Assembly (NCBI GenBank): GCA_004193555.1
Contig: RPGP01000040.1
Span: 625,127-689,126 of the forward strand
Direction of reading: 5' to 3'
DNA: 64,000 bases
Source: Desulfobacteraceae bacterium Eth-SRB1
GTDB lineage: Bacteria; Desulfobacterota; Desulfobacteria; Desulfobacterales; ETH-SRB1
The notes beneath the pieces are model-generated. The model saw only the letters and a program-made list of their open reading frames with translations. It was not told the DNA's origin and made no database searches. Made by a program: the position numbers and the translations under genes. Shown here one piece after another: positions 8,090 to 58,768 of this stretch (position 1 is its first letter; every line of letters starts with the position of its first letter).

Positions 8090-8181
8090 AATAATGTAAA
8101 AGTTCAACCACTAAATCACAAAAGTTTAAAGGCCTTATGCTTGGCAGTCTTTAACTGTCATTGCATTTCGGGGAGATAGGA

Positions 8182-9717
8182 TTATGAGAAATGTTTTCCC
8201 CTGTCCAGGGATCTATATTGAATCGCCTCGGAAATATGATCTGCCCGAATATCAGGCTCACCTTCAAGATCGGCAATAGTCCGGGAAATTTTCAGGATAC
8301 GGTTGTATGCACGGGCCGAAAAACCCAGCTTGTCGATGGCGGATTCAAGAAGATTACATGAGTCCTCATCAATTTTACAGTGTTTTTTAATATGCCGGCT
8401 GCTCATCCTGGCGTTGCAGTAAATCTTGGCGCGCCTGAATCTCTCCGACTGGATCGCCCTGGCTGCTGTTACCCGCTTCCGTATATCTTCAGAAGGTTCA
8501 GCCTGGGCATCTCCCATGAGATCCTTGTACGGAACAGCAGGCACTTCCACGTGAATATCTATCCGATCCATCAAAGGACCGGAAATTTTTGACCTGTACC
8601 GGTGGATCTGTGGGTAGGTGCATCTGCACTCATGCTTTGGATCAGAAAAATATCCGCATGGGCATGGATTCATTGCAGCTATCAGCATAAAACTTGAAGG
8701 GTAAGTAATGGTTGAAGAAGCCCGTGAAATAGTCACCTTAAGATCTTCCAAAGGCTGGCGCAGCACCTCTAACACATGTTTTTTGAATTCCGGGAGTTCA
8801 TCCAGAAAAAGCACACCATTATGAGCCATGCTGACCTCGCCCGGTCTCGGGTTATGACCGCCTCCTATTAAGCCTGCGTCTGATATTGTATGATGGGGAG
8901 ACCTGAAAGGTCTTTTTGTCACAATGGCCTGCTCTTTTGAGAGCATTCCAACGACAGAATAGATTTTTGTAGTTTCTATTGCTTCATCAAATGATATTGG
9001 AGGGAGAATGGTTGGAAGACGCTTTGTCAGCATGGTCTTACCTGAACCAGGAGGGCCGATCATGATAAGGTTGTGGCCTCCTGCGGATGCGATTTCCAGC
9101 GCGCGCTTTACATGTTCCTGACCCATGACTTCTGAAAAATCGACTTCGGAACTGTTGTCTTGATCAAAAATGGCGGAAATGTCGGTTTTTTCCGGTTCTA
9201 TCTGAGAAAATCCTGTAAAAAAGTTTACTGTTTGAGATAATGTTTTTACAGGGAGAACAGCGATTTCATCGACTATGGAAGCTTCCTGTCTATTATCGTA
9301 TGGGACAATAATTCCGGCATAGCCTGCATCTTTTGCAGCAATGGCCATAGGAAGAGTACCGTTTACAGGTTTAATGCGGCCGTCAAGTGAAAGCTCACCT
9401 AAAATAAGGTATTTGGAAGTTATTCCTCTGGAAATGATCCCTGTTGCAGATAATATCCCTAAAGCTATGGGCAAATCAAAACCGGTTCCTTCCTTTTTGA
9501 TATTGGCAGGCGCTAAATTCACCGTTATCCTGTCATCAGGGAATGTATAGCCGGAGTTATTAATTGCGGATTTAACCCTTTCTTTGCTCTCTTTTACAGA
9601 TGCTTCCGGGAGTCCAACTGTTGTAAATGTGGGAAGTCCCTGTGCTATATCCACTTCCACTTCAACAAGATACGCATCTATTCCGATAACGGCGCTGCTT
9701 AATATTTTTGCTATCAC
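8182..9717 (-). CDS. comM: YifB/ComM-family Mg-chelatase-like AAA+ ATPase
   Basis: A 511-residue protein of normal family length. The N-terminal Lon-like (ChlI) domain (about residues 1-180) begins [23 protein letters not shown]. The AAA+ core has Walker A GPPGSGKT and the signature [16 protein letters not shown]...[38 protein letters not shown] and the C-terminal Mg_chelatase_C helical domain follow. ComM is a hexameric helicase that promotes branch migration during natural transformation and recombination. The start is a GTG with GGAGGA just upstream. It converges with the CBS gene, leaving 93 bases between stops. Confidence 0.93.
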
Positions 9718-16402: not shown

Positions 16403-17770
16403 TTACAACATCCCATACTTGTTTAATTTTTTATTAAGACCGCTTTTTCCTACGCCAAGCAGTTCAGCAGCTTGAGACTGAACGTTGTTTGTCAGTTTCA
16501 AAGCTCTTTTGATCATCATTTTTTCAATCATTGTAACTGTTTCGTATAATTGTGCATCCTGAGGAATGCTGTCAAGAATCTGCTCATCATGGACACTATT
16601 CATGAAATCCTTTGGAAGATCTGACCCCTTAATTTTATCACCAGGACATAAAACCATGGCACGCTCAATAACGTTCTCAAGCTCACGGATATTTCCCGGC
16701 CAGTTGTATTCATAGAGCAGCCTTTCAACCTCCGGGTCAAGGCCCCTGACAGGTATATCAGAGCTGCGTTCATCCGAATATTTATTTGTGAAGTGGTTAA
16801 CAAGGATGTTGATATCCTCCTTATGCTGCCTCAGGAGTGGAAGGATAATGCGAACTACATTTAACCTGTAATACAGGTCTTCCCTGAAACGCCCCCCTTC
16901 AACCTCATTTTTCAGATTTTTATTTGTGGCTGCAATAATTCTGATATTAACCGAAATCGGTTTGACTCCTCCGACCCTTTCAAAACTCTTTTCCTGAATA
17001 ACGCGTAAAAGCTTTACCTGAAGGCTCTGCGAAAGCTCGCCAATTTCATCGAGAAACAGAGTCCCTCCATCAGCCAGTTCAAACCGCCCCTTCTTCATGG
17101 CAACAGCGCCTGTAAATGCTCCTTTCTCGTGTCCAAAGAGTTCGCTTTCAAGAAGACTCTCAGCAAGAGCGCTGCAATTCACGGCAATAAAAGGCCGGCC
17201 TCGCCGCAGGCTGTTAAAATGAATAGATTTTGCTACAAGCTCCTTGCCGGTGCCGCTTTCCCCTTCGATCAATACAGTGGCATTAGTCGGAGCAACTTTT
17301 CGAATTGTTTCAAAAACATCCTGCATTATTTTGCTTTTCCCTATGATGTTTCCAAAACTGTATCTTGTTTCAACAGCATTACGCAGGTATCTGTTTTCTT
17401 TAACCACCCGGTACATTGCAATGGCCTTGTTTACATAAAGGACCAGTCTCTCATTGTCAAACGGCTTGAGTATATAGTTATCAGCGCCCTTCTGCATCGC
17501 CAGCACCGCCTTTTCAACTGTGCCGTATGCTGTCATCATTATAACAGGAAGGTCACGATCCTTTTCTTTTATATGTTCAAGCAGTTCAATGCCGTCCATG
17601 GAAGGCATTTTCATGTCCGTAAGCACCAGGTCAACATCAGAGTTTTCCAGAATTTCAAGCGCCTCACGACCGCTGAAAGCGGTTAGCGTTTCAAAGCCTT
17701 CTTCTTCGAGAACAGCACTTAATATTGGCGGATAATTTTTTTCATCATCTACGATTAGAATGGTTTCCAT
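16403..17770 (-). CDS. Sigma-54-dependent response regulator (AtoC/ZraR type)
   Basis: A 455-residue regulator with a receiver domain ([11 protein letters not shown]; phospho-acceptor Asp in [13 protein letters not shown] near 52-55), an AAA+ domain (GESGTGKE, intact GAFTGA in [36 protein letters not shown]) and a Fis-type HTH at the C-terminus ([27 protein letters not shown]). It should bind upstream activator sites and drive sigma-54 promoters. It lies downstream of a histidine kinase gene on the same strand but is separated by 626 bases of repeats. Pairing with that kinase is likely but inferred. Targets are unknown. Confidence 0.92.
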
Positions 17771-33640: not shown

Positions 33641-33703
33641 ATTTTGGAGCAAGGCATCCGTCATGCCGTACTCTACGCCGACATGGTCGGCTCGCTCCAT
33701 ATT
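33641..33703. repeat. REP-like unit (head plus tail)
   Basis: Head TTTTGGAGCAAGGCATCC followed by gtcATGCCGT, then spacer, then tail ACGCCGACATGGTCGGC and TCGCTCCATA. The tail hairpin GCCGAC-ATG-GTCGGC is perfect, and the ends GGAGC / GCTCC are complementary. Confidence 0.85.
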
Positions 33704-33710
33704 TGCGCAT

Positions 33711-33838
33711 CTTCGCACTTTCGCACTTTCGCACTTTCTCACTTTCTCACTTTCTCACTTTCTCCCTTTCTCCCTTTCTCCCTTTCTCCCTTTCTCCCTT
33801 TCTCACCTTCTCACCTTCTCACCTTCTCCCCATTCTTA
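33711..33838. repeat. Tandem 10-bp repeat (CTTTCTCCCT-like)
   Basis: About a dozen head-to-tail decamers drift from GCACTTTCGC through CACTTTCTCA to CTTTCTCCCT and CACCTTCTCA. The run overlaps the last codons of the 1215-residue protein gene. A shorter run of the same type ends the 38457-38861 gene (38410-38456). Being a pyrimidine-only tract, it could vary in copy number. Confidence 0.85.
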
Positions 33839-36800
33839 CTCCCCAACGAGCCCTTATCAAAAAGATAAGGAAAAACATTAATACCAGGGTAGTTACAGGC
33901 CCGAACTTCAGAACGATCCAGCTCATGCCTACAACCGGCAAGAGACTCAGGCGGACAAATGCCTGAAGGTTAGCGTGCCCGTCTATGAACCCGGCTATGG
34001 CCGGAGAATAGGTATAGTAGAATTTCACGAATCTTTTGCCGGCAGTATTGTCAAGCAAAAAACGATCCCTGAAGTCCCGCAGTATCCTGACGTGCGGCTC
34101 TATTTTTGAACCATAGGCTGCGGTAGCAATGAAGCAGCCGCCGCCGCCACCATCAGCGACACCGATACTGTTTGAGCTATTGCCTGGAAGACCCGGAGGG
34201 GGTGGGGGCTGATGAGCAGAGTTTCCGTCCGCATAGCATGTTGAGGCGATAACATCCATGAACCTGTGCAATGACCTCCGTGCATGCCATATCATCTTCT
34301 TGTAAAGCAACGGCACATTCTGTTGAAGCGCAATGATCGATGACTCATCAAACCGGATAATTATATCAGAGGATTTGTAGTTGTATATCCAGCAGCCTTG
34401 ATATGGGTCCATCGATGCGTTATCAAGAGATATCTCGGTGTACCAGATGGTATTTCCCTGGCCGTCATCGTGCGGATCAAATTTAAAGATATAGTTATCG
34501 GTAAGCCCGGTAGTTGATAGAGAATCAAAGTTCACGCCGTCATCACTTACTGTGATGGCATCAGAATTGATAGTTTCATTGTAAGGATTTGCAACCATGT
34601 TCCAGCCGGGATGAAGCGTGGTTTCAAAAGGGACTTCCTTATTCAAAGTAAGCCCCTTGACATTAAGGAGCTTATCATACCTTGAAATAACCCAATAGGC
34701 TCTCCCTGGTTCTAAGGGGTGCATGTCGGCAAAATCTGAAGCATTGGCTTCATCATATTCCATGGAGCTGTTATTATATACAGCGCACCGCCAGATGCGG
34801 GTATCATAGTTTCCAAAAATGGTGGAAAGATTGGCCACAAGATCAAAATTATCAGGATTGCACGGGAAGGAAATCATACTGTAATCCTCGGTATTAGTGC
34901 CGCCGATCACAGGTGTGCCAAGCTCTTCCGCTTGTCCTACAGTAAACAGGGAAAAATGTGTAGTCCTGAAACTGATGGTTTCATCTTCGGTATTAACGGT
35001 ATAGTCAGAAACAGGCGTCCAGCGGTTCAGGTCAGGATTAAAAGTATAGACTCTGAGATCTTGAGGACGATCAATATTTGGGATATTTCCATACGGCAAT
35101 GTCACTTCAATTGCAACGCCAAAGGTTACTTTGTTACCGTTTGCCTTTCTGGCATTCATATCTATCACATCGCCGAATACGGCAGATGTGTTAGGTTTTG
35201 CTTGATCGCTTGTCACCTTATTGCAAGTAAAAGTAAAAAGATCTGTTGATGAGCCGGCAGGAACGACAACAGTCGCTCCATTGTAAACCGTTCCTGCATC
35301 CATTACCGTAAGCGCTGCTTCATATTCTGCAACATTGATTTGGCCGGCAACGTCCATAGTCATTGAAACTGCTGTTATCTCCCTGATCTCAATCAATCCT
35401 GATATGGTCGTAAAATTTCTTTCGTCAGTGACTTTGAGCCGGTATGATCCGGTTCGATCGACAGTAGAGAAGGTATAGTAATCACCAGTAGTTGCAGCAG
35501 TTATATTGCCGGTATCGTTATTGATAAGTTCGCAAGAATAGAAAGGTGTTGAGCCTTCAAAAAAACCACCGCTGATAATAAAATCCTTATCAACATCAGT
35601 TTCATTGATGCGCAGCAGCCTCTGAGAATTGGGTGTAATAACAAGGGGGTTCAGCGCCCTTAAATCATAACTCAATGTATCGGTCTTCTCACCATCCGAA
35701 ACCTCGATTTCCAGAGGTATGGTCCTGCCTGCATCTGCATCACCCGGGACCCATCGAATACGCGCTCCGAAATAGCCGGCATCTAAAGGTTTGATATTCA
35801 TACCCGCAGGCGGTGTGCCTTTGAGTGTATAAACAAGATTTTCATTTTGAGTTTCCTCATCCTCTGCCTCTATCATAAATGTATAAACATGACCGGGCAT
35901 GGCAAGAGTGTCGCAGGTATCAGTTTCAGGTAAGACCGTGGTAAAGTATGGAGCGTCATTTACAGAAGCAACAATGAGCGTAAAGATCTGGATAGCCTCA
36001 AGTCCCCATTTATCCGTTGCTTTGACTGTAATGGTGTGAGGGCCTGCATCTACATCAGAAGAGGGTTCATAAGTAATTTTGCCATCCGAATCGATCATCA
36101 TTCCTGAAGGATAAGTATCTACAAGGGTGTATGTAACATCAGCTCTATTGGTTGCAAGCATGTATATATATGTTTCATCTTCAACGGCTGTGATTACAGG
36201 CGATGATGTAATCTCAAGGGGTGTATTGTCGAGCTGGAACTGCGATGAAAGTGGATAATTGCTGTGGTCATACGCGTCCTCGACCTTTAACCGAATCTTG
36301 TAATCACCCGATGGCCAGGAAGAAGCGTCTACAACAACAGTATACGTAGTTCCTGAAGAGGAAAAACCCATTGGTTCAAATGCTGTGTGGGCAGGGTCAG
36401 TGGTTACAAAGACCAGAGGATTATAAGTATCATAGTCAGGTCCGGATGTGTAGCTGCAATAGGATCCATACCATGTTACGTCATCATTTTCAGCATCGGT
36501 TCCGGTAAATACAACATCAAGGTAGCCGCTGCCATCTGTTCTCTGCGTTACAGATACAAAGTCAATGATAGGGGCATTATTTCCTTCATATTCGTAGGCC
36601 CCTATATCAAGGACATATCCCATATCAACAGTCCATATTGGTGGTACTTCAGAAGCCGCAAACGAACCCGTGGGAGAACCTGGAGTAAAAAGCAGGTTGC
36701 CCCCTTCATATTCCACACCTGTGCTTTTGTCCCATACCTTAAAAGTGAGCTCATCCCCGTCAACGGCTCCTTCATCACCGGCAGTTTCGGAATCGTCCCC

Positions 36801-37466
36801 GTAAACCTGTATTATTCCATATTGACCTGCCGTGGTGATGCGAACATGCCCGCAAAGAACACCGGTTTGATCGAATATTGCCACTTCGTCTCCTATGTCC
36901 GCAGGCGCCCCGAGTATTGTAAGGTTTCCTATATAGTTGCATACATATGGGGTACCGACAGGCTCGGCAAAGTGTGCGGGAGTATCTATGTTCAAAACAT
37001 AGCCTGCCTGATCCTGCCATACTGGGGGAACAGAAGATGTAACAAAAGATGATCCTGACGGCGGACTCCCTCCCGACAGGTGAAGATCAGCCCCTGTCAG
37101 TTCAATATTTTCACTTGCATCCCATATCCTGATTGTCAGCACATCTTCAGGGCTCGCCCCTTCATCCACCTCTGATGTCGTGTCATCTCCATAAATATGA
37201 ACAACCCCATACTGACCGGAATCGTCCACAACATAGAGCCCGCACAGGACACCCTGTGGATCGAAAAAGGCCACCTCATCCCCTGTCTGGGCATCCACTC
37301 CGTCGATTTTGAACGTTCCCATATAATCGCAGTACACAGGTGATGTGAGGGGTGATGAGAAATGAACGCCATTTGCACCTGCTGTCGGCAAATACACAAC
37401 TATGGCTAACAACCAGATTGCCAAAAAAATCTGCCAGGACCTTCTTGTAACGGTGGAATATCTCAT
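33819..37466 (-). CDS. Surface protein with two GDEV domains, cadherin-like repeats and CFI-box C-terminus
   Basis: A 1215-residue exported protein. A signal peptide is followed by two copies of the [15 protein letters not shown]...DEGA domain (about 32-150 and 165-290). Cadherin/He_PIG-like Ig repeats follow (about 300-640; [24 protein letters not shown]), then a GWNMVANPY / YQGCWIY segment (about 960-1060) and a Gly-rich linker. A C-terminal box starting [10 protein letters not shown] (about residue 1108) is followed by [23 protein letters not shown], a hydrophobic helix and an Arg-rich tail. That end is the CFI-box-CTERM pattern, a putative sorting or anchoring signal known only from sequence. 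The cohesin gene follows. The stop lies in the decamer repeat tract. Confidence 0.85.
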
Positions 37467-37497
37467 TTTAGATTCTCTCTTTAAATCATTGCTTGTT

Positions 37498-37560
37498 TAT
37501 TTTGGAGCAAGGCAACCATGATGCCGTACAGACGCAAACATGGTTTGCTCGCTCCATATT
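37498..37560. repeat. REP-like unit with GCAAAC tail variant
   Basis: Head TTTTGGAGCAAGGCAACC with ATGATGCCGT, then tail GACGCAAACATGGTTTGC and TCGCTCCATA. The second hairpin is GCAAAC-ATG-GTTTGC, a compensated variant of GCCGAC-ATG-GTCGGC. Confidence 0.85.
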
Positions 37561-37566
37561 TGCTGC

Positions 37567-38238
37567 TCAACGCAATCCAGCCAAGACCTGGCAAATATAA
37601 ATAATCTCGGCAAGCCCAATCTTATCATCACCGTTCACGTCGGCTTCTTCGTAAATGCCCTCTGCCGGTTCAATACCGCTTATGATTTGGAGGACCAGGA
37701 TGACGTCAGTGAGATTAATTTCGCTATCTCCGTTGATGTCGCCAAAGTGGACTGTTGTATCTATGTTCAATCGAAAACCATCATTCTCACTTGTCCATAG
37801 TGGTGGAATATTGGAAGAAGCTGATTCTCCCAGAGGAAGACCCGGTGTAAGCAATACACTATCACCCTCGTATTCGAGACCGGCACTTGCATCCCATATT
37901 TTAACGGTCAATGGATCTCCAGGGTCAGCTCCTTCATCCTTAGGGGTACCAGTATCGTCCGGATAGACATGAAGGAATCCGTATTGACCAGCTATGCCGA
38001 CAGGCAAAACGTAAAGTCCGCACAAGACACCATCCGGATCAAAAAAGGCTACCTCATCACCGGGCTGACCATCTACACCATTGATCTTAAAACTTCCGCT
38101 ATAGTAACAGGAGGGCCCTGTCGAAACCGGCAAAGGAAAATGCCCCGCCTTTGCAGTGCCCACAAATACAACGCTAAAAAGTAGCCCTGTTATAAAACAT
38201 ATAGTCCAGCATCTCCTTATGGCACGGTTTGATTTCAT
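37567..38238 (-). CDS. GDEV-domain protein with C-terminal dockerin-like module
   Basis: A 223-residue exported protein. It has a signal peptide (to about residue 31, VGTAKAGHF), one [18 protein letters not shown] ... GQYGFLHVYPDDTGTPKDEGADPGD domain (about 32-150), and a C-terminal pair of EF-hand-like repeats. GDINGDSEINLTDVILVLQI and ADVNGDDKIGLAEIIYICQ match the two Ca-binding F-hand motifs of type I dockerin. A dockerin would dock onto a cohesin, and a cohesin-like protein is encoded 4 kb downstream on the same strand. No carbohydrate-active domain is present, so a cellulosome is unlikely. Confidence 0.8.
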   Translation of the reverse strand: MKSNRAIRRCWTICFITGLLFSVVFVGTAKAGHFPLPVSTGPSCYYSGSFKINGVDGQPGDEVAFFDPDGVLCGLYVLPVGIAGQYGFLHVYPDDTGTPKDEGADPGDPLTVKIWDASAGLEYEGDSVLLTPGLPLGESASSNIPPLWTSENDGFRLNIDTTVHFGDINGDSEINLTDVILVLQIISGIEPAEGIYEEADVNGDDKIGLAEIIYICQVLAGLR

Positions 38239-38282
38239 TGCTCGTTACTCGTCACTGGTTACTGGTTTCTCGTTGCTCGTTT

Positions 38283-38408
38283 ATTTTGGATCAAGGCATC
38301 CATGATGCCGTCCACGTTACGCAAACATGGTTTGCTTGATCCATAGTTTTTGGATCAAGGCAACCATGTTACCGTATTATCACGCCGACATGGTCGGCTC
38401 GCTCCATA
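38283..38408. repeat. Two tandem REP-like units, GGATC outer-stem variant
   Basis: Unit 1 (38283-38345) begins TTTTGGATCAAGGCATCC and ends GCTTGATCCATAG, so the outer stem GGATCAAG / CTTGATCC is fully compensated relative to GGAGCAAG / CTTGCTCC. Its tail hairpin is GCAAAC-ATG-GTTTGC. Unit 2 (38346-38408) has a GGATC head but a GCTCC tail, giving a mismatched outer stem, and ACCG for GCCG in the head. Confidence 0.85.
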
Positions 38409-38456
38409 GTTGCGCATCTTCCCACTTTCCCACTTTCTCACTTTCTCACTTTCTCC

Positions 38457-38861
38457 CTATTCCCTCCTAAAATCCACCTTCTTCCTCTGCCGATCTCCGG
38501 TCCAATAAATATCTACATCTGACAGGAGGAATTCCCCGTTCAGCTTAAATGTCAGTACGTCCCCAGCTTTTGCCCCCTCATCGACACTGGTGTTCGGATC
38601 ATCCGCATAGACATGAAGGAATCCATATTGACCAGCTTTGTTAACTGTAAACTCACCACACAATACACCATCAGAATCAAACACTGTCACATTATCTCCC
38701 GCCACAACACCATCAATATAGCCAAAAAAGTCCATACTGAATGGGGTGGGCCGTACCTGATCTTGTGCCCATGCAAGACCTGTATTGGCGGTGAAGAGCA
38801 ATAGCCCAAGGACCGCTACAATCATGTACATCCTGGATTTATGGAGCTTCCCGTTTAACAT
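38457..38861 (-). CDS. Small exported single GDEV-domain protein
   Basis: A 134-residue protein with a signal peptide (cut near TGLAWAQD, about residue 32). A single domain follows: MDFFGYIDGVVAGDNVTVFDSDGVLCGEFTVNKAGQYGFLHVYADDPNTSVDEGAKAGDVLTFKLNG. This is the shortest member of the domain family that recurs in the neighbouring large proteins, so it defines the domain limits (about 85-100 residues). GAGGAGGAAAT lies upstream at ribosome-site distance. The last codons run into a CACTTTCTCA repeat tract. Confidence 0.8.
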   Translation of the reverse strand: MLNGKLHKSRMYMIVAVLGLLLFTANTGLAWAQDQVRPTPFSMDFFGYIDGVVAGDNVTVFDSDGVLCGEFTVNKAGQYGFLHVYADDPNTSVDEGAKAGDVLTFKLNGEFLLSDVDIYWTGDRQRKKVDFRRE

Positions 38862-39203
38862 GGCACATTTCCTCCTCTACAAAACCTAAGGTTATTACTT
38901 ATCATCGGCTCTTGCTCGTTTCCATGCACCAGCATAGAACACCATATGGTATGCATTCCCACGCTGGAGCATGGGAACGAGGATTCCTGTCTCCTGGCAG
39001 GCAGGTACATCCGGATACTCCATAGTTTGGATCAAGGCATCCATGATGCCGTTTAATACGCCGACATGGTCGGCTTGCTCCATATTTTGGATCAAGGCAT
39101 CCATGATGCCGTCTTGTTTTACGCGAATCCGCCTCAGGCAGACTCCGACCTCCGACCTCCGACCTCCGACCTCCGACCACTCGACCTCCGACCACTCGAC
39201 CAA
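38862..39203. repeat. Gap with palindrome, REP-like units and heptamer tract
   Basis: A degenerate copy of the large palindrome of 58288-58348 lies at about 38914-38982 (the right arm CCCACGCTGGAGCATGGGAA is intact). REP-like pieces with the GGATC outer stem lie at 39013-39024, 39025-39084 and 39086-39112. A tandem CCGACCT tract (about 39143-39200) ends at the stop of the 2421-residue gene. No gene is seen. Confidence 0.75.
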
Positions 39204-42200
39204 TTAGTATGACAGCGTATCCACAGTTTTCATCTTAATCCACATGCCATAACCAGGGCCGAAATACTCCAGATCATTAAAGGTACCGAGCATGGGGTCA
39301 TAGGTATGGGCGCCACTATCATACGACCTGATGACTGCGTAGTTGCCGCTTATCGCTGACAGCACGTCGCCCATGTCATTCACCTCGGTAAATTGTGTAG
39401 CATCGGGCGGAAATGCCACATCAAGAGGTTTCGTCCCTGTGTACTGGATATCGGGATGCCAGTATCCCGCAAGGTTCCATCCTGTATGAAGATCAAGCGT
39501 ATCCGCAGGCAAGGCCCTGAGACCGTTTAGCTCCAGATTGCCTGCTGTGTTCATCTTGATCCAATACCCGTAACCTCCGGCCACATATTTGAGGTCGCTA
39601 TAAGATGGGATAACCGGATCAAACGTGTGGGCGCCAATGCTGTCAAAGCTGCGCACAACATCGTAAAGGCCGGCTATAGACGAGAATACGTCTGCAATGC
39701 TGGTTACTTGTGTATAGACTGTGCCTGGCAGCATGGGCTCAGCAGGAGGCCCGTCAGCATACCCCGAAACTCCGTCAGCATAGTAACATGTCTTTACACT
39801 AAAACTGATAAGGTTCCATCCCTCATGCAGAGGAATCGTTTGCATACCTGAACCGTTTAAGTTCACTTCGAATCTATCTTTATCAAAGGTCCATGACGGG
39901 GGAGAACTGCCGGTAATCACAGTGGTTGTTGTATCCAGTTCTACCCCGGCGCCGGCATCCCAGATACGGAATGTTAATTCGTTACCCGGTTCGGCCCCTT
40001 CATCAACTTCTGTTGTACCGCTATCATCCCTGTAAACATGCATAAAGCCATATTGACCTGCAGTGTTTACAGTAAACTGTCCACAAACCACCCCGTCAGG
40101 GTCAAACACGCCGACTTCATCACCTGCTTCCGCAGGAACGCCATCGACGTTTACATTGCCATAGAAATCCATGGATTCGCTCGTGGCGCCGGCAATTTGG
40201 AAGTGTTTGGTCAATATCGGTATTGTGCCGTCTGTATATTCATCAAGATTGGCAACCCCGTCTCCGTCATTGTCCTGAGCGGCATCACCGGCATACAATG
40301 GGTCGAGTCCAAAACCTGTCTCCCATCCATCCGGCATTCCGTCATTATCGCTGTCGCTATTGTTTGGATCCGTTCCCTGTGTATATTCCTGAAGATTAGT
40401 CAGACCGTCACTGTCTGTATCAAGCGATGCATCCGAAGCATCCTCAGAATTCAAACCGTGGTCATCCTCCCACGCATCAGGCATGCCGTCACCATCGGTA
40501 TCTCCCAATAATCCTCCGGAAAGAACAGCATAGGCGGTAAATGAAACAGGAGAGCCTGTTAATCCTGCAGAACTCGCTGAAACAATCGTGGTTCCGGTAT
40601 CAGGTCCAAGCGTGAGCGTATTGGATGCAAAACCAGAATCATCTGTAGGTACAGGATCAGTGTTCGCAAGTATTCCGTCACCTGAAATCACGCTGAAAGT
40701 TACATCTGTCAATGAAACAGGTTCTCCAAGTATATCGGTAATCTTTACAACCAGTGAATTAGGTAGAAGATTGTCGATATTATCCACCTGCTTATCTCCA
40801 GAGACCTTACTCAATTTCATTGCCTCGCCCGCAGCATAGCCTGTTGCGGAAAAGGTAACCGATTCTGTAGTTTCAGCTATGGTTGCAGAAACGATATTAA
40901 TGCCTGCCGTTGTTCCAAGTGTCAGCGTGTTTGATACCAAACCGTTTGCATCACTTATCCCGGTTTCAGATGACAGGCTTCCATCGCTGCTTTCAATTAC
41001 AAAGTTTACCAATATTCCGGATCTGGTTTTACTGTCGGAATCATACACTCTGGCTACAAATGAATCAGGCATAACAGTTCCTGTCTGTCCTACCTGCCCG
41101 TCACCGGAGACCTTCTGAATATAGCTCGGGATATTTTCGTCTTCACCGATCCGCACATCGTCAATTGTCCAGCCTGGCTTTCTGTAGTTGATAGTTTCGT
41201 CCATCGTATCACTCATCACAAACTTTATCCGCACGTTGGGCAATCCGGCCCAGGTACTTAAATCTATCTGCTTATACGTCCATGTTGTCTGATCCCCCTT
41301 GAACGATGCCAGTTGCGTCCATGTACCGGGCTGACCATTATATGTGGAGAGGTAAACACAAGCATAGTCGTAATCCTTCTGAGAATAATCGCAACCGCCG
41401 TCGGATGAAGAATCCGGGCAGTTTCTGGTATCGTACTTGTGCCAGAAGGTAAGCTGCGGGTGAACGGCGCCACTCAGAGCTATGCTGTTGGCCATGATAA
41501 GCTCGGAACTTACAAGTGAACCGTAATCCCCTTCAGGGCTGTCCGTAAAGGCATAGATGCCGCTGATGCCGCTGTACCCATCCGGCGCCAGCGCCCATGA
41601 TGAACTGTGCCAGTTCGCTAAGGTGGCTGCTCCACCTTCCATGTTGTCAGTAAATGGATAGGAAAATGGCGATCCCTCGGTCTCTGCTATCATGATGTCA
41701 TCAATATACCACCCATCAGACTGAACGCCGTTGGTGTCCGATGTCAACCTGAAACGGATTTCCACCTGTTTCCCTGCGTATCCTGACAGATCAATTCTCT
41801 CTTTAAACCATGCAGCAGAAGTGCCGGTTATAAAATAAAGCCTCTTCCACGTGGAGCTGCCAACCTCCCTCACCTCCACATATCCATGGTCCGAGTTGCT
41901 CTCCAGGGCATATTTCTGCCAGAAGGTGAGTACAGGCATCACTGCCGCCCCAAGATCTACGGTTATGTTAAGCGAACTATCCTCTCCCCCGGAATATGAT
42001 CCCTGTGGTGAGTCTGTCCATACTGTGGATGTTTCCCCTGTGTGAGATTCTGCCGACCCAATAGTAATCAATCCCCATGGTGAATCATAAAACCACGGGA
42101 CGCTCCCGCTCTCCATGTCATCAAAGAAAGGATAGAGAGCCAGAATCGATTCTTCTTTGATTTGTAACCCGTCCATATACCAGCCGTCCTGCTGGTTCGT

Positions 42201-45200
42201 ATCGTTGGAAGTCAGGCGGAATCTAAACCCGAGGTTGGCGTTGCCTGCATAGGCGGTTAAACTGATACGTTCATGGTTCCATGTACTTTCAGCGCCAGTA
42301 ATTGACCGGATTGTGGTCCACGTCTGACCATTATCGGTAGAGACTTCGATCTTTATAAAGTCGATGCCATCCTCAAGAGAATAGCGGTGCCAGAATGTCA
42401 AAACAGGGGCGGTTGTTCCGCCAAGGTCAATAAACGTTGCAAGGCTCGTATTGGCATTGGCCGGATAGTTGGCCCCAGGCGAATCTGTCCAGCAATATGT
42501 TCCTTCATAGGGCATTGTGTCCGTCAGGCCCCACGGCGTTCCATAAGACCATTGAGACGTACCGCTCTCGCTCTCACCGTCTTCAGAAAAAGGGAAGCTG
42601 TTGCTCGGAATAGAATAAGTTGCCTGCACCTCATTGCCTCCCATGGAAACATTACTGTCCGTGTCAACAACCCACATCTTGTAGTAATAGGTCCCAGGCT
42701 GAATCATTGCCACTGCATCAATATAAATTAATTCAGTCTTTGTGGTGATGCTTGCAACAAGGGTATCGCTGCGGGTGACACCTGAAGCTGAAGAGCGGTA
42801 AAGCTCATAACGGGCAAAGTCTGAATCAGTATTTTCACCCCACTCGATGGAAACGCTGTTCTGAGAAGAGGCAGTAATAGATAGAGTTACATCAACAGGG
42901 GCCTCTTCAATAGCAACATCATCAATTGTCCAGCCTGGCTTTCTGTAGTTGATAGTTTCGTCCATCGTATCACTCATCACAAACTTTATCCGCACGTTGG
43001 GCAATCCGGCCCAGGTACTTAAATCTATCTGCTTATACGTCCATGTTGTCTGATCCCCCTTGAACGATGCCAGTTGCGTCCATGTACCGGGCTGACCATT
43101 ATATGTGGAGAGGTAAACACAAGCATAGTCGTAATCCTTCTGAGAATAATCGCAACCGCCGTCGGATGAAGAATCCGGGCAGTTTCTGGTATCGTACTTG
43201 TGCCAGAAGGTAAGCTGCGGGTGAACGGCGCCACTCAGAGCTATGCTGTTGGCCATGATAAGCTCGGAACTTACAAGTGAACCGTAATCCCCTTCAGGGC
43301 TGTCCGTAAAGGCATAGATGCCGCTGATGCCGCTGTACCCATCCGGCGCCAGCGCCCATGATGAACTGTGCCAGTTCGCTAAGGTGGCTGCTCCACCTTC
43401 CATGTCGTCAGTAAATGGATAGGTAAGAACCGCTGTCTCTGTCTCGTCTATGTTAATGTCGTCTATGTACCATCCATCGGACTGTGTGCCATTGGTGTCG
43501 GCTGCCAGCCTGAAACGGAGTTCTATTTGTTTGCCTGCATAATTGGACAAATCTACCCTTTCTTCAAACCATGCAGCGGTCCCTGTTGCAAAGTAGAGCC
43601 TTTCCCACGTGGCACTGCCAACCTCCCGAACTTCTATATATGCATGGTCAGAGTTGCTTTCCAGTGCATATTTCTGCCAGAAGGTAAGCACAGGCATCAC
43701 TGCCGACCCAAGGTCTATGGTCATGCTAAGAAAGGTATCAGCTCCCGCTGAATAGGAACCTTCAGGAGAATCTGTCCATACAATTGATGCTGCATCTGAG
43801 TGAGAATCATAAGCTGCCAAAGTCATTAAACCCCATGTAGAATGATAAAACCACGGAATGATCCCGCTCTCCATGTCATCAAAGAAAGGATATGATGCAT
43901 GAATAGACTCTTCTTTGATTTGCAGGCCATCCATATACCAGCCATCCTGCTGGTTAGCGCTATCTGAGGTCAGGCGAAATCTGAGGCCAAAATTTGCGTT
44001 GCCGCTATAGGCAGCAAGGTTCATCCGCTCCTGGTTCCATGCGGTCTCTATGCCTGTAAATGTCCTCAGCCCGGTCCAGGTCTGACCATCGTCAGCAGAT
44101 ACCTCCAAATATACAAAATCTGTCCCCTCTTCTAAAAAGTAGCGGTGCCAGAATGTCAAAACAGGGGCGGTTGTTCCGCTGAGGTCAATAAACGTTGCAA
44201 GACTCGTATTGGCATTGGCTGGATAGTTGGCCCCAGGCGAATCTGTCCAGCAATATGTTCCTTCATAGGGCGTTGTGTCCGTCAGGCCCCACGGCGTTCC
44301 ATAAGACCATTGAGACGTACCGCTCTCGCTCTCACCGTCTTCAGAAAAAGGGAAGCTGTTGCTCGGAATAGAATAAGTTGCCTGCACCTCATTGCCTCCC
44401 ATGGAAACATTACTGTCCGTGTCAACAACCCACATCTTGTAGTAATAGGTCCCAGGCTGAATCATTGCCACTGCATCAATATAAATTAATTCAGTCTTTG
44501 TGGTGATGCTTGCAACAAGGGTATCGCTGCGGGTGACACCTGAAGCTGAAGAGCGGTAAAGCTCATAACGGGCAAAGTCTGAATCAGTATTTTCACCCCA
44601 CTCGATGGAAACGCTGTTCTGAGAAGAGGCAGTAATAGATAGAGTTACATCAACAGGGGCCTCTTCAATAGCAACATCATCGATTGTCCAGCCTGGCTTT
44701 CTGTAGTTGATAGTTTCGTCCATCGTATCAATCATTACGAATTTTATCCGCACATTGGGCAATCCGGCCCACGTGCTGAGGTCTATGATCTTCTTTTCCC
44801 ATGTGGTCTGACTCCCTTTGAACGCTGCTAATTCTTTCCACGTTCCAGGCTGACCATTATATGTGGAGAGGTAAACACGAGCGTAGTCGTAATCCTTCTG
44901 AGAATAATCGCAACCGCCGTCGGATGAAGAATCCGGGCAATTTCTGGTATCGTACTTGTGCCAGAACGTAAGCTGGGGATGAAGTGCGCCATTCAAATCA
45001 ATGCTGTTGGCCATGACAAGCTCGGAGCTTACTAATGAACCATAATCCCCTTCAGGGCTGTCAGTAAAAGCGTAGCTCCCGCTACAGCCATCCACAACTA
45101 AATCCCATGATGAACTGTGCCAGTTGGCGGCTGAGGTTGCCACTCCTTCCATATCGTCTATAAATGGATAGGTAAAAGCAACAGTCCCTGTCTCGTCTAT

Positions 45201-46469
45201 GTTAATGTCATCTATGTACCATCCGTCGGACTGTGTGTCATTGTCTGATACGAGTCTGAAACGGATATCAATTTTTTTCCCAGCATAATTAGACAAGTCC
45301 ATCCGCTCCTCAGTCCATGAAGCGATGGTGCCTGTCACAAAATAGAGTCTCTTCCAGGTAGTGGTTCCATCTTCCCTTACTTCTATATAGCCATAGTCTG
45401 AGTTGTTATCAAACGTACACTTGTGCCAGAAGGTAAGCACAGGCATATTCGCTGCTCCAAGATCGACTGTTATCTGCAAAGAAGTGTCGGCTCCCGCCGC
45501 GTAAGAACCTCCGGGGGAATCTGTCCATGAATATATGCCAGAATGCTTATGCGCATCGGTAAGACCCCACGGCGAGCCTGCTGTCCAACCGCCAACAGAT
45601 CCTTCCAGATCGTCAAAAAAGGGATAGTGAAACTCTGCGATACTCGTTATGCCGGATTCTTCCTTGCTTCCGGCAGCCAGATCATTTGTGTCAAAAACAT
45701 ACACTTTATAGTAGTATGTGGTTTCAGGGGTTAAATCCGTGTCTGTATATAATATAGTGTTTGGATCAGTGATTGTAGTCACAAGAGTACTGGAAGGGCC
45801 GACACCCGCTGTTGTGCTTCGATATATCTTGTAGCCGGCAAAATCAGCGCTTAGATACTCTGTCCATGCAAGATCAAGTGTTGTTGCAGTCGGATTGTCA
45901 ACCGCGAGTTCGGCAACCGCGTTAGGCGGTTCGGATATGGCGACGTCATCAATGTACCAGCCGTCCCATACAATAGTCTTATCGGTTTCAAGCCTGAAGC
46001 GGATTAGAACATTTGCCTGACCTGCATAATCAGATATATCAATCTGCTCCCGTGTCCAGTCGGAAATGCCGGTATATGAAGCTAGTTCATGCCAGGTTGA
46101 GCCTCCATCAGTAGAAAGCTCCAGATACCCAAAATCGAAATCTGTTTCTATTTGGCGTTTATGCCAGAAGACCAGTTGAGGATTAGTTACAGTTGCAGAT
46201 GAAAGATCGAGAGATGCGGCAAGTATCATGGAAATGTCAGCTTCATTGGCATAATAGGCGCCCGGGCTGTCTGTCCAGGCGGTGGAAGCGCTGTGATACT
46301 CTGATGTGGTCGTGGACCATGGACTTTCACCTGTCCACTTAGCCGTGCCTTCCATATCATCGCTGAAATAGGCTCCTGCCCATGATACCGAACTCATCCC
46401 CAGACAAAACATGACTCCAATGAGAGATAAAATGACTGTGGTCTTCAGGTAATGCGCTGCCTTTTTCAT
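39204..46469 (-). CDS. Giant modular surface protein (nine MAM-like modules, FnIII, Big-1, TSP3-like, GDEV)
   Basis: A 2421-residue exported protein with a signal peptide (to about residue 31, VSWAGAYF). Nine MAM/choice-of-anchor-J-like modules follow, each with FxDDMEG, (W/F)TDSP, LTFWHK and GW(Y/T)IDD(I/V). Three FnIII domains lie between modules. Then come two Big-1-like domains (SKVSGDKQVDN), a Ca-binding TSP3-like stretch (DTDGDGMPDAWEDDHGL, DSDNDGMPDGWE), one GDEVGVFDPDGVVCG...DEGAEPG domain and two GWNL...YGYWIKM segments. It is probably a calcium-stabilised adhesin or matrix protein. It has no CFI box. The middle carries a tandem duplication of about 1.76 kb (separate entry). Confidence 0.85.
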   Translation of the reverse strand: MKKAAHYLKTTVILSLIGVMFCLGMSSVSWAGAYFSDDMEGTAKWTGESPWSTTTSEYHSASTAWTDSPGAYYANEADISMILAASLDLSSATVTNPQLVFWHKRQIETDFDFGYLELSTDGGSTWHELASYTGISDWTREQIDISDYAGQANVLIRFRLETDKTIVWDGWYIDDVAISEPPNAVAELAVDNPTATTLDLAWTEYLSADFAGYKIYRSTTAGVGPSSTLVTTITDPNTILYTDTDLTPETTYYYKVYVFDTNDLAAGSKEESGITSIAEFHYPFFDDLEGSVGGWTAGSPWGLTDAHKHSGIYSWTDSPGGSYAAGADTSLQITVDLGAANMPVLTFWHKCTFDNNSDYGYIEVREDGTTTWKRLYFVTGTIASWTEERMDLSNYAGKKIDIRFRLVSDNDTQSDGWYIDDINIDETGTVAFTYPFIDDMEGVATSAANWHSSSWDLVVDGCSGSYAFTDSPEGDYGSLVSSELVMANSIDLNGALHPQLTFWHKYDTRNCPDSSSDGGCDYSQKDYDYARVYLSTYNGQPGTWKELAAFKGSQTTWEKKIIDLSTWAGLPNVRIKFVMIDTMDETINYRKPGWTIDDVAIEEAPVDVTLSITASSQNSVSIEWGENTDSDFARYELYRSSASGVTRSDTLVASITTKTELIYIDAVAMIQPGTYYYKMWVVDTDSNVSMGGNEVQATYSIPSNSFPFSEDGESESGTSQWSYGTPWGLTDTTPYEGTYCWTDSPGANYPANANTSLATFIDLSGTTAPVLTFWHRYFLEEGTDFVYLEVSADDGQTWTGLRTFTGIETAWNQERMNLAAYSGNANFGLRFRLTSDSANQQDGWYMDGLQIKEESIHASYPFFDDMESGIIPWFYHSTWGLMTLAAYDSHSDAASIVWTDSPEGSYSAGADTFLSMTIDLGSAVMPVLTFWQKYALESNSDHAYIEVREVGSATWERLYFATGTAAWFEERVDLSNYAGKQIELRFRLAADTNGTQSDGWYIDDINIDETETAVLTYPFTDDMEGGAATLANWHSSSWALAPDGYSGISGIYAFTDSPEGDYGSLVSSELIMANSIALSGAVHPQLTFWHKYDTRNCPDSSSDGGCDYSQKDYDYACVYLSTYNGQPGTWTQLASFKGDQTTWTYKQIDLSTWAGLPNVRIKFVMSDTMDETINYRKPGWTIDDVAIEEAPVDVTLSITASSQNSVSIEWGENTDSDFARYELYRSSASGVTRSDTLVASITTKTELIYIDAVAMIQPGTYYYKMWVVDTDSNVSMGGNEVQATYSIPSNSFPFSEDGESESGTSQWSYGTPWGLTDTMPYEGTYCWTDSPGANYPANANTSLATFIDLGGTTAPVLTFWHRYSLEDGIDFIKIEVSTDNGQTWTTIRSITGAESTWNHERISLTAYAGNANLGFRFRLTSNDTNQQDGWYMDGLQIKEESILALYPFFDDMESGSVPWFYDSPWGLITIGSAESHTGETSTVWTDSPQGSYSGGEDSSLNITVDLGAAVMPVLTFWQKYALESNSDHGYVEVREVGSSTWKRLYFITGTSAAWFKERIDLSGYAGKQVEIRFRLTSDTNGVQSDGWYIDDIMIAETEGSPFSYPFTDNMEGGAATLANWHSSSWALAPDGYSGISGIYAFTDSPEGDYGSLVSSELIMANSIALSGAVHPQLTFWHKYDTRNCPDSSSDGGCDYSQKDYDYACVYLSTYNGQPGTWTQLASFKGDQTTWTYKQIDLSTWAGLPNVRIKFVMSDTMDETINYRKPGWTIDDVRIGEDENIPSYIQKVSGDGQVGQTGTVMPDSFVARVYDSDSKTRSGILVNFVIESSDGSLSSETGISDANGLVSNTLTLGTTAGINIVSATIAETTESVTFSATGYAAGEAMKLSKVSGDKQVDNIDNLLPNSLVVKITDILGEPVSLTDVTFSVISGDGILANTDPVPTDDSGFASNTLTLGPDTGTTIVSASSAGLTGSPVSFTAYAVLSGGLLGDTDGDGMPDAWEDDHGLNSEDASDASLDTDSDGLTNLQEYTQGTDPNNSDSDNDGMPDGWETGFGLDPLYAGDAAQDNDGDGVANLDEYTDGTIPILTKHFQIAGATSESMDFYGNVNVDGVPAEAGDEVGVFDPDGVVCGQFTVNTAGQYGFMHVYRDDSGTTEVDEGAEPGNELTFRIWDAGAGVELDTTTTVITGSSPPSWTFDKDRFEVNLNGSGMQTIPLHEGWNLISFSVKTCYYADGVSGYADGPPAEPMLPGTVYTQVTSIADVFSSIAGLYDVVRSFDSIGAHTFDPVIPSYSDLKYVAGGYGYWIKMNTAGNLELNGLRALPADTLDLHTGWNLAGYWHPDIQYTGTKPLDVAFPPDATQFTEVNDMGDVLSAISGNYAVIRSYDSGAHTYDPMLGTFNDLEYFGPGYGMWIKMKTVDTLSY
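41161..44743. repeat. Large near-identical tandem duplication inside the 2421-residue gene
   Basis: Positions 41161-41667 match 42922-43428 (offset 1761 bp) almost base for base, with one difference noticed near the end. Positions 42387-42985 match 44145-44743 (offset about 1758 bp). Together they show that a unit of about 1.76 kb, two MAM-like modules plus an FnIII, was duplicated in tandem and part of it has stayed nearly identical while intervening parts diverged. Confidence 0.85.
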
Positions 46470-46967
46470 GTTCTTGTCCCCCCTTTTTTAGCCACGGATA
46501 AACGCAGATAAAACCATATCTACGAAGAACCACTCACTTTTTTGAGTTTGTAAATTTCTGGTTGAATAATACCTAAATTGAGCGATTTTTTATAGGTAAT
46601 AAGCACTTAACCACTCGACTAGTAACTTCTCAAAAACTTGGGGTATTTGTTGCCCTCCGTTGTTCCGGCAACATGGTCGGCTCGCTCCATAGTTTGGAGC
46701 AAGGCAACCATGTTGCCGTTGGCTTTACGCAAACACGGTTTGCTTGCTCCATAGTACGCCGACATGGTCGGCTTGCTCCATATTATTTGGAGCAAGGCAA
46801 CCGTGTTGCCGTAAAGGGTTTGGGTGACAAAAACACAACATCTACCCAGACTTTTTGAGAAGTTACCTCGACCACTCGACGATGTCTGGAAATTAACAAA
46901 AAAAACAGCTTGTATCCGCGTTTATCTGCGTTTATCTGCGGCCAATTTGTCTTTTTCTTTTGAGCTA
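46470..46967. mobile_element. MITE-like element carrying REP units, within a repeat-filled gap
   Basis: The element spans 46622-46866. GTAACTTCTCAAAAA at 46622-46636 is the exact complement of TTTTTGAGAAGTTAC at 46852-46866, and the pairing extends imperfectly to about 24 bp. Inside lie REP tails (46665-46692, 46755-46784), a full unit (46693-46754) and a head (46787-46813). The phrase ACCACTCGAC flanks both ends and may be a target duplication, though it is itself repetitive. Outside the element, GCAGATAAACGC-type phrases (46491-46515 and 46914-46940) are in opposite orientation. There is no gene. A second copy is at 58509-58768. Confidence 0.75.
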
Positions 46968-54472: not shown

Positions 54473-54667
54473 TCTGGAGCAAGGCATCCGTGATGCCGTA
54501 TTTTGGAGCAAGGCATCCGTGTTGCCGTTGCATTTACGCAAACACGGTTTGCTTGCTCCATAGTACGCCGACATGGTCGGCTCGCTCCATAGTTTTTGGA
54601 GCAAGGCATCCGTGATGCCGTATCACACCGACATGGTCGGTTCGCTCCATATACACATGTTGCCGTA
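54473..54667. repeat. REP-like cluster downstream of the transposase gene
   Basis: Heads lie at 54473-54500, 54502-54527 and 54594-54621. Tails lie at 54536-54563 (GCAAACACGGTTTGC type), 54564-54591 (GCCGACATGGTCGGC) and 54627-54651 (ACCGACATGGTCGGT, again compensated). A partial head lies at about 54655-54667. The cluster fills the gap between the FecR gene start and the transposase stop. Confidence 0.88.
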
Positions 54668-54674
54668 CAGCAAT

Positions 54675-55217
54675 TTAATGATCATTTTTTATATTTATCT
54701 TGTCAAACGGATATGCTTCCCTCAATCGTTCAAGATATTCTTTTTGCTCTTTATATCTATGAAAATAGCTTCCCCATTGATAATCTTGTGCTTTCTTTAC
54801 GTAACCATGCTTTACAGGATTGAAGTAAATGTAATTTAGCCTTGCATAATAAGATCTTTCGTAAGTGATACAGGTGTCCCAATAATTGTCGAATATTTTC
54901 GGAAAGGCATTATATTGTGGATATTCTTTTTTTATAAACATTGCTGTAAATTTGTGATACTCTGATACAAATTTTGAAATATCAGCTCCTTTTTGGGGCG
55001 AGTTGACCATAATGTGGTAATGATTATCCAAAATCACCCAATCCTCAAGTGTCCAGTCATAATTCCGGTATGCGATCTTGAGAGACGATAGCAGTTTTTG
55101 TTTTGAGTTATCATCAAGTATTTTTATCTTTTTATATGTTGACGCTGTAATAAAATATTTCGCAGAGTCTTTGTGCAAATGAGGTGGAGTATGAACATAT
55201 GTCTTGTATTTTTCCAT
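54675..55217 (-). CDS. REP-associated tyrosine transposase (Y1_Tnp family)
   Basis: A 180-residue protein of the IS200/REP-associated (RAYT/TnpA_REP) family. The HUH motif is in WVILDNHYHIMVN (about residues 62-74), and YFITASTYKK near the start is the family phrase. The Tyr in ERSYYARLNYIYFNPVKHGYV (about residues 120-140) fits the catalytic Tyr helix. RAYTs are single-copy domesticated transposases that nick and move REP/BIME hairpins. It is flanked on both sides within 10 bases by the REP-like clusters at 54473-54667 and 55225-55362, the expected arrangement. It lacks IS200-type ends. Confidence 0.9.
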   Translation of the reverse strand: MEKYKTYVHTPPHLHKDSAKYFITASTYKKIKILDDNSKQKLLSSLKIAYRNYDWTLEDWVILDNHYHIMVNSPQKGADISKFVSEYHKFTAMFIKKEYPQYNAFPKIFDNYWDTCITYERSYYARLNYIYFNPVKHGYVKKAQDYQWGSYFHRYKEQKEYLERLREAYPFDKINIKNDH

Positions 55218-55224
55218 TTGTTTT

Positions 55225-55362
55225 TACGCCGACATGGTCGGCTCGCTCCATATTATTTGGATCGAGGCATCCATGTTGCTGTATTATCACGCCGACATGG
55301 TCGGCTGGCTCCATGTTTTTTGGGCAAGGCTGGCTCCATATTTTTGGAGGTCGGCTCGCTAC
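55225..55362. repeat. REP-like cluster upstream of the transposase gene
   Basis: Tail at 55225-55253 (ACGCCGACATGGTCGGC), head at 55256-55282 (TTTGGATCGAGGCATCC), tail at 55288-55316, then degenerate pieces to 55362 (GGGCAAGGCTGGCTCC, GGAGGTCGGCTCGCT). It lies directly before the start codon of the transposase and may contain its promoter or leader. Confidence 0.85.
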
Positions 55363-58508: not shown

Positions 58509-58768
58509 GTAACTTCTCAAAAACTTGGGGTATTTGTTACCCTCCGTTGTTCCAGCAACATGGTTGCCGTATTATCACGCCGACATGGTCGGCTCGCTCC
58601 ATATTATTTGGAGCAAGGCAACCGCGATGCCGTATTTTGGAGCAAGGCAACAGTGTTGCCGTCTTTGGAGCAAGGCAACCATGTTGCTGTCTTTGGAGCA
58701 AGGCAACCATGTTGCCGTAAAGGGTTTGGGTGACAAAACACAACATCTACCCAGACTTTTTGAGTTAC
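58509..58768. mobile_element. Second MITE-like element with internal REP array
   Basis: The left end GTAACTTCTCAAAAACTTGG (58509-58528) is identical to the copy at 46622. The right end TACCCAGACTTTTTGAGTTAC (58748-58768, written in two parts TACCCAGAC and TTTTTGAGTTAC) lacks three bases of the first copy. Both copies share the phrases CCTCCGTTGTTCC on the left and AAAGGGTTTGGGTGACAAAA on the right. Inside are a partial head (58553-58570), a tail (58574-58604) and four tandem heads (58607-58718). TTAACACT on the left and TTAACACTT on the right flank it, consistent with a target duplication. Confidence 0.75.

Follow-up and report, generated by a model that had tools for sequence, protein, structure and literature searches.

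It is very probable that the unit at 38287-38343 is a BIME-1/REPIN-type doublet of a small family of REP elements, probably mobilised by the RAYT gene at 54675-55217, and that its outer stem is not separately selected. The system found in the window (the whole stretch of 64,000 nucleotides that was analysed) is a real, ordinary REP/RAYT system with doublets, in which the hairpins are constrained and the outer stem is not. What the paired changes preserve is the fold of the individual REP. Within a doublet, each end varies on its own.

The unit reads TGGATCAA-GGCATC-CAT-GATGCC-GT-(7 nt)-AC-GCAAAC-ATG-GTTTGC-TTGATCCA and consists of two copies of one 25-nt palindromic repeat, placed head-out and separated by a 7-nt spacer. 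The 25-nt core of the repeat is TGGAKCRA-G[4 nt]C-CRT-G[4 nt]C-GT, that is, a leader TGGA[G/T]C[A/G]A, a 6-bp hairpin made of G-nnnn-C, a loop C[A/G]T and again G-nnnn-C, and a final GT, for which the relatives mostly have GG. The stems fall into three classes: A (GGCAAC or GGCATC), B (GCCGAC), and C (GCAAAC). All six stem pairs are intact in 35 of the 44 copies of this genome, and the stem is imperfect in nine (e.g., GGCAAC/GATGCC at 37503 and GGCATC/GTTGCC at 54504). The variant hairpins quoted in the initial annotation are all present: GCCGAC/GTCGGC (e.g., 38382-38406), GCAAAC/GTTTGC (38319-38343), ACCGAC/GTCGGT (54625-54649), GGCATC/GATGCC, and GGCAAC/GTTGCC. Its description of the sequence was correct as written but omitted the imperfect stems and the mismatched outer ends. 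The REP copies of the window, all located by anchored scan, and the RAYT gene are as follows.

33645-33669, plus strand: REP class A, imperfect stem (GGCATC/CATGCC)
33675-33699, minus strand: REP class B
37503-37527, plus strand: REP class A, imperfect stem (GGCAAC/GATGCC)
37532-37556, minus strand: REP class C
38287-38311, plus strand: REP class A (GGCATC/GATGCC), left half of the unit described above
38319-38343, minus strand: REP class C (GCAAAC/GTTTGC), right half of the same unit
38351-38375, plus strand: REP class A, imperfect stem (GGCAAC/GTTACC)
38382-38406, minus strand: REP class B (GCCGAC/GTCGGC)
39028-39052, plus strand: REP class A
39058-39082, minus strand: REP class B
39088-39112, plus strand: REP class A, third REP of the 39028-39112 group
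46665-46689, minus strand: REP hybrid, class B left arm and class A right arm, pairing broken
46695-46719, plus strand: REP class A
46727-46751, minus strand: REP class C
46756-46780, minus strand: REP class B
46788-46812, plus strand: REP class A
54475-54499, plus strand: REP class A, RAYT-flanking array
54504-54528, plus strand: REP class A, imperfect stem (GGCATC/GTTGCC), RAYT-flanking array
54536-54560, minus strand: REP class C, RAYT-flanking array
54565-54589, minus strand: REP class B, RAYT-flanking array
54597-54621, plus strand: REP class A, RAYT-flanking array
54625-54649, minus strand: REP class B, basal pair A-T (ACCGAC/GTCGGT), RAYT-flanking array
54675-55217, minus strand: RAYT/TnpA_REP gene, 180 aa, NHYH and YIYFNP motifs (NF047646, PF01797, PDB 4er8)
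55226-55250, minus strand: REP class B, RAYT-flanking array
55258-55282, plus strand: REP class A, imperfect stem
55289-55313, minus strand: REP class B
58577-58601, minus strand: REP class B
58609-58633, plus strand: REP class A, imperfect stem
58638-58662, plus strand: REP class A, in direct tandem array
58666-58690, plus strand: REP class A, imperfect stem
58694-58718, plus strand: REP class A

These sequences are short imperfect palindromes, repeated and extragenic, as REP elements are. They depart from the canonical form, in which a 5' GT[AG]G tetranucleotide stands 0-2 nt from the hairpin foot: GTAG or GTGG was found within 2 bases of the foot in none of the 70 REP copies, where the leader is TGGAKCRA. 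The conserved element is TGGA, which lies four bases further out than the canonical tag position and is followed by KCRA. The GTAG/GTGG tag was used to find canonical REPs in PMC6006769, which also describes, next to certain tnpA_Y1 subclasses, atypical structures lacking this tag; hence, GT[AG]G is treated here as the canonical, not the sole, form of REP. An Rfam scan of the 64-kb window gave no match at the gathering threshold.

At least 44 REP copies are carried by this genome (3.34 Mb), 30 of them within the window. Contig C40 carries 35, spread over 658771-722290 and none more than 50 kb from the RAYT gene; the remaining nine are on contig C1, distant from it. None of the 30 copies of the window overlaps an ORF of at least 120 aa, though such ORFs span 87% of the window (35 of the 51 ORFs were counted; the other 16 touch no REP). 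A whole-genome pattern search with up to one mismatch gave 45 hits, of which C29:236988 and C40:552339 were set aside as chance, a reversed control pattern having also yielded two hits; the addition of the copy at 54625 from the anchored scan makes the total 44. The anchored scan covered the window and the loci L015, L016, L017, and L019, and more degenerate copies elsewhere would escape it. Loose scans for REP-like sites returned mostly chance hits, and the near-exact ones alone were retained.

When 389 genomes of the order were searched with the strict pattern, three matched, this genome included. The strict pattern demands CGT after the stem and therefore misses copies that end in CGG, such as those of G056 and G004. 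A loose pattern matched 16 of 58 related genomes; this genome, G003, G004, and G056 were accepted, and the other 12 were judged by eye to be chance. The relatives G003, G056, and G273 carry at least 2, 13, and 7 REPs of this family, respectively.

The surroundings of the REPs have further features. Degenerate short repeats of the type GTTACTCGTTGCTCGTTTATTTT lie ahead of several class A REPs (window 38240-38286 and 37486-37502; L059:700-729; L019:10240-10261 and 17160-17200) and occur also in another genus (G003); they may mark a preferred insertion context. Simple tandem repeats (GAGAAAGG, CTTTCTCA, and CGACCTC units) stand beside REPs in the same intergenic regions (33748-33842, 38415-38460, 39143-39196). 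The minus strand of 33819-54455 encodes very large putative surface or secreted proteins of 1215, 2421, and 2495 aa, with a dockerin-type protein at 37567-38238 among them. A domain scan of two of these gave an Ig-like match for the 1215-aa protein and MAM, reelin, and fn3 matches for the 2421-aa protein. Three ORFs (33819-37466, 38457-38861, and 39204-46469) contain diverged copies of a 105-nt repeat.

The product of 54675-55217 was identified as a RAYT, a Y1 HUH transposase with an NP-type Y motif. It scores 91.4 bits against NF047646 (cut-off 80) and exceeds the cut-off for PF01797 (Y1_Tnp), and its sole PDB match is TnpArep 4er8 (E 6.7e-10). The gene lies 16 kb from the unit at 38287-38343 and has REP arrays on both sides, at 54475-54649 and 55226-55313. 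This 3.3-Mb genome has 14 Y1_Tnp matches (L001-L014; three with an internal stop codon, some partial), and when positions were compared, only 54675-55217 had REPs of this family within 50 kb. In G004, from the same family but a different genus, REPs with the hairpin GGCAAC/GTTGCC, also found in this genome, stand on both sides of a RAYT of 53% identity. Genomes can thus have REPs and yet no intact close relative of this RAYT: in G056 they are accompanied by just a 34-aa RAYT-like fragment (65% identity), and in G003 and G273 by weak matches only (20-27% and 20-26% identity, respectively). A RAYT-based contig search returned one distant Chromatiaceae locus (28% identity), which was left unused. 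We infer recognition of the REPs by this RAYT from position only, because RAYT substrates described so far have the GT[AG]G tag, and the leader here is a different one.

Covariation in the hairpins was assayed on an alignment (A2) of 68 of the 70 REPs, 44 of them distinct; L015:12392-12416 and L058:563-587 were excluded for three anchor mismatches each. It was observed that 95.5% of the hairpin cells were paired compared to 79.5% in shuffles, and none of 500 shuffles was as high. Both sides had changed at five of the six hairpin pairs, which was attained by 7 of 500 shuffles. The tree-aware null redistributed per-column parsimony substitutions over a FastTree tree of the 25-57-nt sequences, such trees being weakly resolved; the four variable pairs covaried beyond this null with an overall p of 0.0007, the floor of 1,500 simulations. 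The compensatory changes that had been claimed for the hairpins are thus borne out. Eight of the 70 REPs had been admitted partly because they pair. When the test was repeated without them (62 rows), the same result was obtained, with p of 0.004, 0.006, 0.006, and 0.011 for the four free pairs and again 0.0007 overall. It was likewise the same for distinct sequences only (38) and for this genome only (42), with p of 0.002-0.023. On the G statistic alone, one of the four free pairs of the REP alignment had a p of 0.07. For the 14 aligned doublets taken by themselves, p was 0.0007 for the right hairpin and 0.074 for the left. Since only 1-3 substitutions per column were inferred in the four free stem pairs, the covariation amounts to a handful of changes together with differences between classes. 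The results support a constraint on the hairpins, either selection on the hairpin itself or a copying process that preserves it.

Exchange between hairpin arms could give the same pattern of covariation. The copy at 46665, in which a class B left arm and a class A right arm are joined at the CATG loop, indicates recombination between classes, and the few substitution events per column are also in keeping with recombination or template switching between arms and REP classes. As the cause of the covariation in place of selection, however, such exchange is unlikely, given that all six pairs are kept in 35 of the 44 copies, that identical hairpins are found in other genera, and that mismatched intermediates exist (37503, 54504).

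Sixteen head-out doublets were found, 13 of them in this genome. The spacer between the 25-nt cores is 3-7 nt in 14 of the 16, which are inverted pairs of the BIME/REPIN kind. Every one of the 16 joins class A with class B or C, for which random pairing would give a probability of about 1e-4 (common descent being left out of account), and in the scanned arrays of this genome A occupies one strand and B/C the other, except for an A/A pair at L017 within a TIR element. Nine pairs of neighbours are head-to-tail (seven in this genome), direct tandem REPs are present at 58609-58718 and 54475-54528, and single REPs also occur. An identical doublet with near-identical flanks was seen at L016:3780-3836 and 8130-8186, 4.35 kb apart; its origin is therefore probably segmental duplication, not transposition.

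When folded as single-stranded DNA, the unit at 38287-38343 was more stable than all of 200 shuffles (z -4.33). The DNA MFE on 65 nt was a long hairpin of -15.3 kcal/mol; on the 57-nt core the long hairpin had -14.9 kcal/mol compared to -13.1 kcal/mol for the junction, and each individual hairpin had a probability of 0.03. As RNA, the junction was the MFE (-22.3 kcal/mol, 2.8% of the ensemble), and the centroid was the long hairpin. Among eight doublets folded as DNA, the MFE was a long hairpin in five (38283, 37499, 46691, 54500, 55254) and junction-like in three (33641, 39024, L016:3776). The doublet 55254-55317 was the only one of the eight that was no more stable than chance (z -1.31; 28 of 200 shuffles as stable). 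Both hairpins had a probability above 0.9 in 3 of 13 doublets folded and about 0.7 at 39028, and for the doublet at 46695 the junction equalled the MFE (-14.6).

The long-hairpin MFE of five of the eight doublets, one of them (55254) no more stable than shuffles, and the short spacer of 3-7 nt would suit a REPIN proper, in which the doublet is the replicative unit and acts as one long hairpin with REP paired to REP. We think this improbable for the present family: all 16 head-out doublets combine halves of unlike class, giving mismatched arms, several doublets favour separate hairpins, and nine neighbour pairs are arranged head-to-tail.

Two REP groups of the window lie within TIR-bounded miniature elements, as given below.

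46622-46866, unstranded: TIR-bounded miniature element, 24-bp ends, 8-bp flanks CTCGACTA/CTCGACCA (7 of 8 alike), holding the REPs 46665-46812
58509-58768, unstranded: second TIR-bounded element, holding the REPs 58577-58718, right end shortened, TTAACACT on both sides (right end by eye)

The ends of these elements are GTAACTTCTCAAAAACTTGGGGTA, with 8-bp target duplications. With up to one mismatch, they were found in 22 of 58 related genomes, this one included, and a reversed control gave no matches. Other TIR elements that enclose REP pairs are at L017:2907-3073, L047:721-879, and L050:636-795; G056 and G273 are among the genomes with such elements. Besides this REP family, ends of this one kind surround several unrelated palindromes in related genomes: the CGTC type, GGATTCC...GGAATGAC, GGTTCCCA...GGGAACC, and others. 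From the fetched loci, 34 distinct elements of 105-300 bp were collected by script, many chosen for both visible ends, so that the counts are no census: 7 or 8 of 8 target bases match in 23 of the 34, and the core folds at z of -3.0 or below against mononucleotide shuffles in 32 of the 34. Sorted by short motif, under type names coined in this analysis, the cores are CGTC-type (10), GGATTCC type (8), this REP family (6, 4 of them with duplication), GGGCGGGTTTATCC (2), GGTTCCCA (1), CCCCC (1), and of no type (6). At L045:659-1022, two TIR elements stand back to back with a shared 8-bp boundary and matching GACTGGTG outside both, like a compound element. IS66 was considered as the source of the TIR element on account of its ends. 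PF03050 was present in none of six TIR-bearing relatives, and IS66 was rejected as far as tested; the one IS66 gene of this genome has no such ends within the 4.4 kb of sequence covered there.

REP pairs lie between the 24-bp inverted ends in this genome, G056, and G273, and 7 or 8 of 8 flanking bases are duplicated in four of the six REP-type elements collected. Nevertheless, we find it quite improbable that the REPs are cargo of the TIR-bounded element, spread by its transposase, with the RAYT incidental. No such ends were found at the unit at 38287-38343 or at the other displayed doublets of L016, L019, and L059; this genome has 10 end matches against 44 REPs; and 35 of the 44 copies cluster at the RAYT.

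Tentatively, and as a somewhat doubtful possibility, TIR elements with one end type (24-bp inverted repeat, 8-bp duplication) may be interchangeable carriers of palindromic repeats, such that REPs move as cargo between sites and species and a resident RAYT of the non-GTAG-leader kind amplifies them locally. REPs within TIR elements have a precedent, because section 7 of PMC3733652 reports REPs, some as dimers, inside longer palindromes in three other species. In the open PMC literature, no paper was found that reports several kinds of palindromic core sharing the same ends.

To return to the outer stem of the doublet, covariation had been claimed for all three stems, and for this one the claim fails (p 0.27 in the tree-aware test, 0.93 and 0.17 by permutation). 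In the permutation test, carried out on all 16 head-out doublets, the outer 8-nt ends were fully complementary in 3 (3.75 expected, p 0.81); the first varying position was complementary in 7 (8.5 expected) and the second in 10 (8.6 expected). The simulated power of this test was 1.0 for full compensation, 0.92 at 80%, and 0.66 at 60%. In the alignment (A1) of 14 doublets, from which those with spacers of 40 and 72 nt were excluded, only two of the eight outer-stem pairs vary. Among the 13 distinct ones, pair 5/53 is G-C in five, U-A in one, and unpaired in seven, and pair 7/51 is A-U in seven, G-C in one, and unpaired in five. The tree-aware test found no covariation in the outer stem, which was 88% paired compared to 90% in the null. 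Both sides of the outer helix have changed in two doublets, one at each varying pair, and this counts against our explanation. The compensated T:A pair noted in the initial annotation does occur in the unit at 38287-38343, as a single case, and the position is mismatched in 9 of the 15 other doublets. Moreover, other doublets of this region have GGATCAAG too, for instance 38351-38406 and 39028-39082, and there the right end does not complement it. Such complementarity as the outer ends show follows from the 5' leader TGGAKCRA, which both REPs bear in inverted orientation. With the outer-stem tests null, the combination GGATCAAG...CTTGATCC is most plausibly a chance meeting of two leaders, each varying by itself. 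It is highly improbable that selection acts on the doublet as a unit, folded into a genuine three-way junction as RNA or single-stranded DNA, and on each of its three stems: the junction MFE of the unit in RNA, the three junction-like DNA folds, the three doublets with both hairpins above 0.9, the tie at 46695, and the heterotypic halves of all 16 doublets, which disfavour a perfect long hairpin, speak for it, but the outer stem does not covary at a power adequate against strong compensation, the unit in DNA has a long-hairpin MFE with arm hairpins at 0.03 each, and REPs are found outside doublets.

For the preferred reading, a REP/RAYT system whose selected structure is the single hairpin, the following course may be proposed. 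On single-stranded DNA, for example the lagging-strand template, each REP would fold into its own hairpin. The HUH/Y1 RAYT would bind the hairpin together with the 5' leader TGGAKCRA, nick beside it, and copy or join REPs, singly or several at once, to sites close by; the clustering of REPs around the RAYT gene would follow from this. The head-out arrangement would permit either a long hairpin or a three-way 'clover', and the closing stem would arise incidentally, from identical leaders lying face to face.

The system may be compared with those already described. The work of Bertels and Rainey (2011, PMC3116915) calls compensatory changes common in REPINs, and the legend of its Fig. S11 sets a stable hairpin against a less stable 'clover' fold. 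Such REPIN folds being already published, the suggestion that the unit goes beyond simple REP hairpins is not new. Like REPINs in that source, the present doublets have two inverted REPs with a spacer, clusters beside a RAYT gene, compensatory changes, and hairpin-or-clover folds. They differ from the REPINs of SBW25 (typically identical REPs, about 430 doublets) in the pairing of A with B/C, in number (44 REP copies found), and in the head-to-tail neighbours. Mosaics of REP types in opposite orientations are shared with the E. coli BIMEs (y/z1/z2 REPs) and the Ec REPtron as described in PMC8266576, and the PDB match of this RAYT, TnpArep 4er8, is a further likeness to the E. coli system; unlike there, the present REPs have no GTAG tag and no bulge, and have a 6-bp stem and a CRT loop. 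The GTAG/CGTC-tagged palindromes of PMC3733652 similarly form head-out and head-in homo- and heterodimers that may fold separately or as one, but the leader here is TGGAKCRA. Among the TnpA_Y1 subclasses of PMC6006769, 2.2 and 2.8 resemble this RAYT in size (180 aa) and in the Y motif (YIYFNP here, YIHYNP there). The NHYH of this RAYT is the motif given for subclass 2.8, which differs in having GT[AG]G tags and, in that sample, in occurring in Cyanobacteria only; subclass 2.2 differs in DHLH and in long REPs with a bulge.

Complementary ends are automatic for inverted repeats that share a leader, and only association within doublets can reveal a selected stem. The test of that association fails here, which corrects an attractive over-reading of the doublet as a junction. 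The locus adds a RAYT/REP pair with a 5' leader that departs from GT[AG]G. A REP hairpin common to genera whose RAYTs are 53% identical is a useful natural comparison for substrate recognition by RAYTs. If the carrier reading of the TIR elements is true, REP families would travel between genomic sites or species as cargo and be amplified locally by the RAYT.
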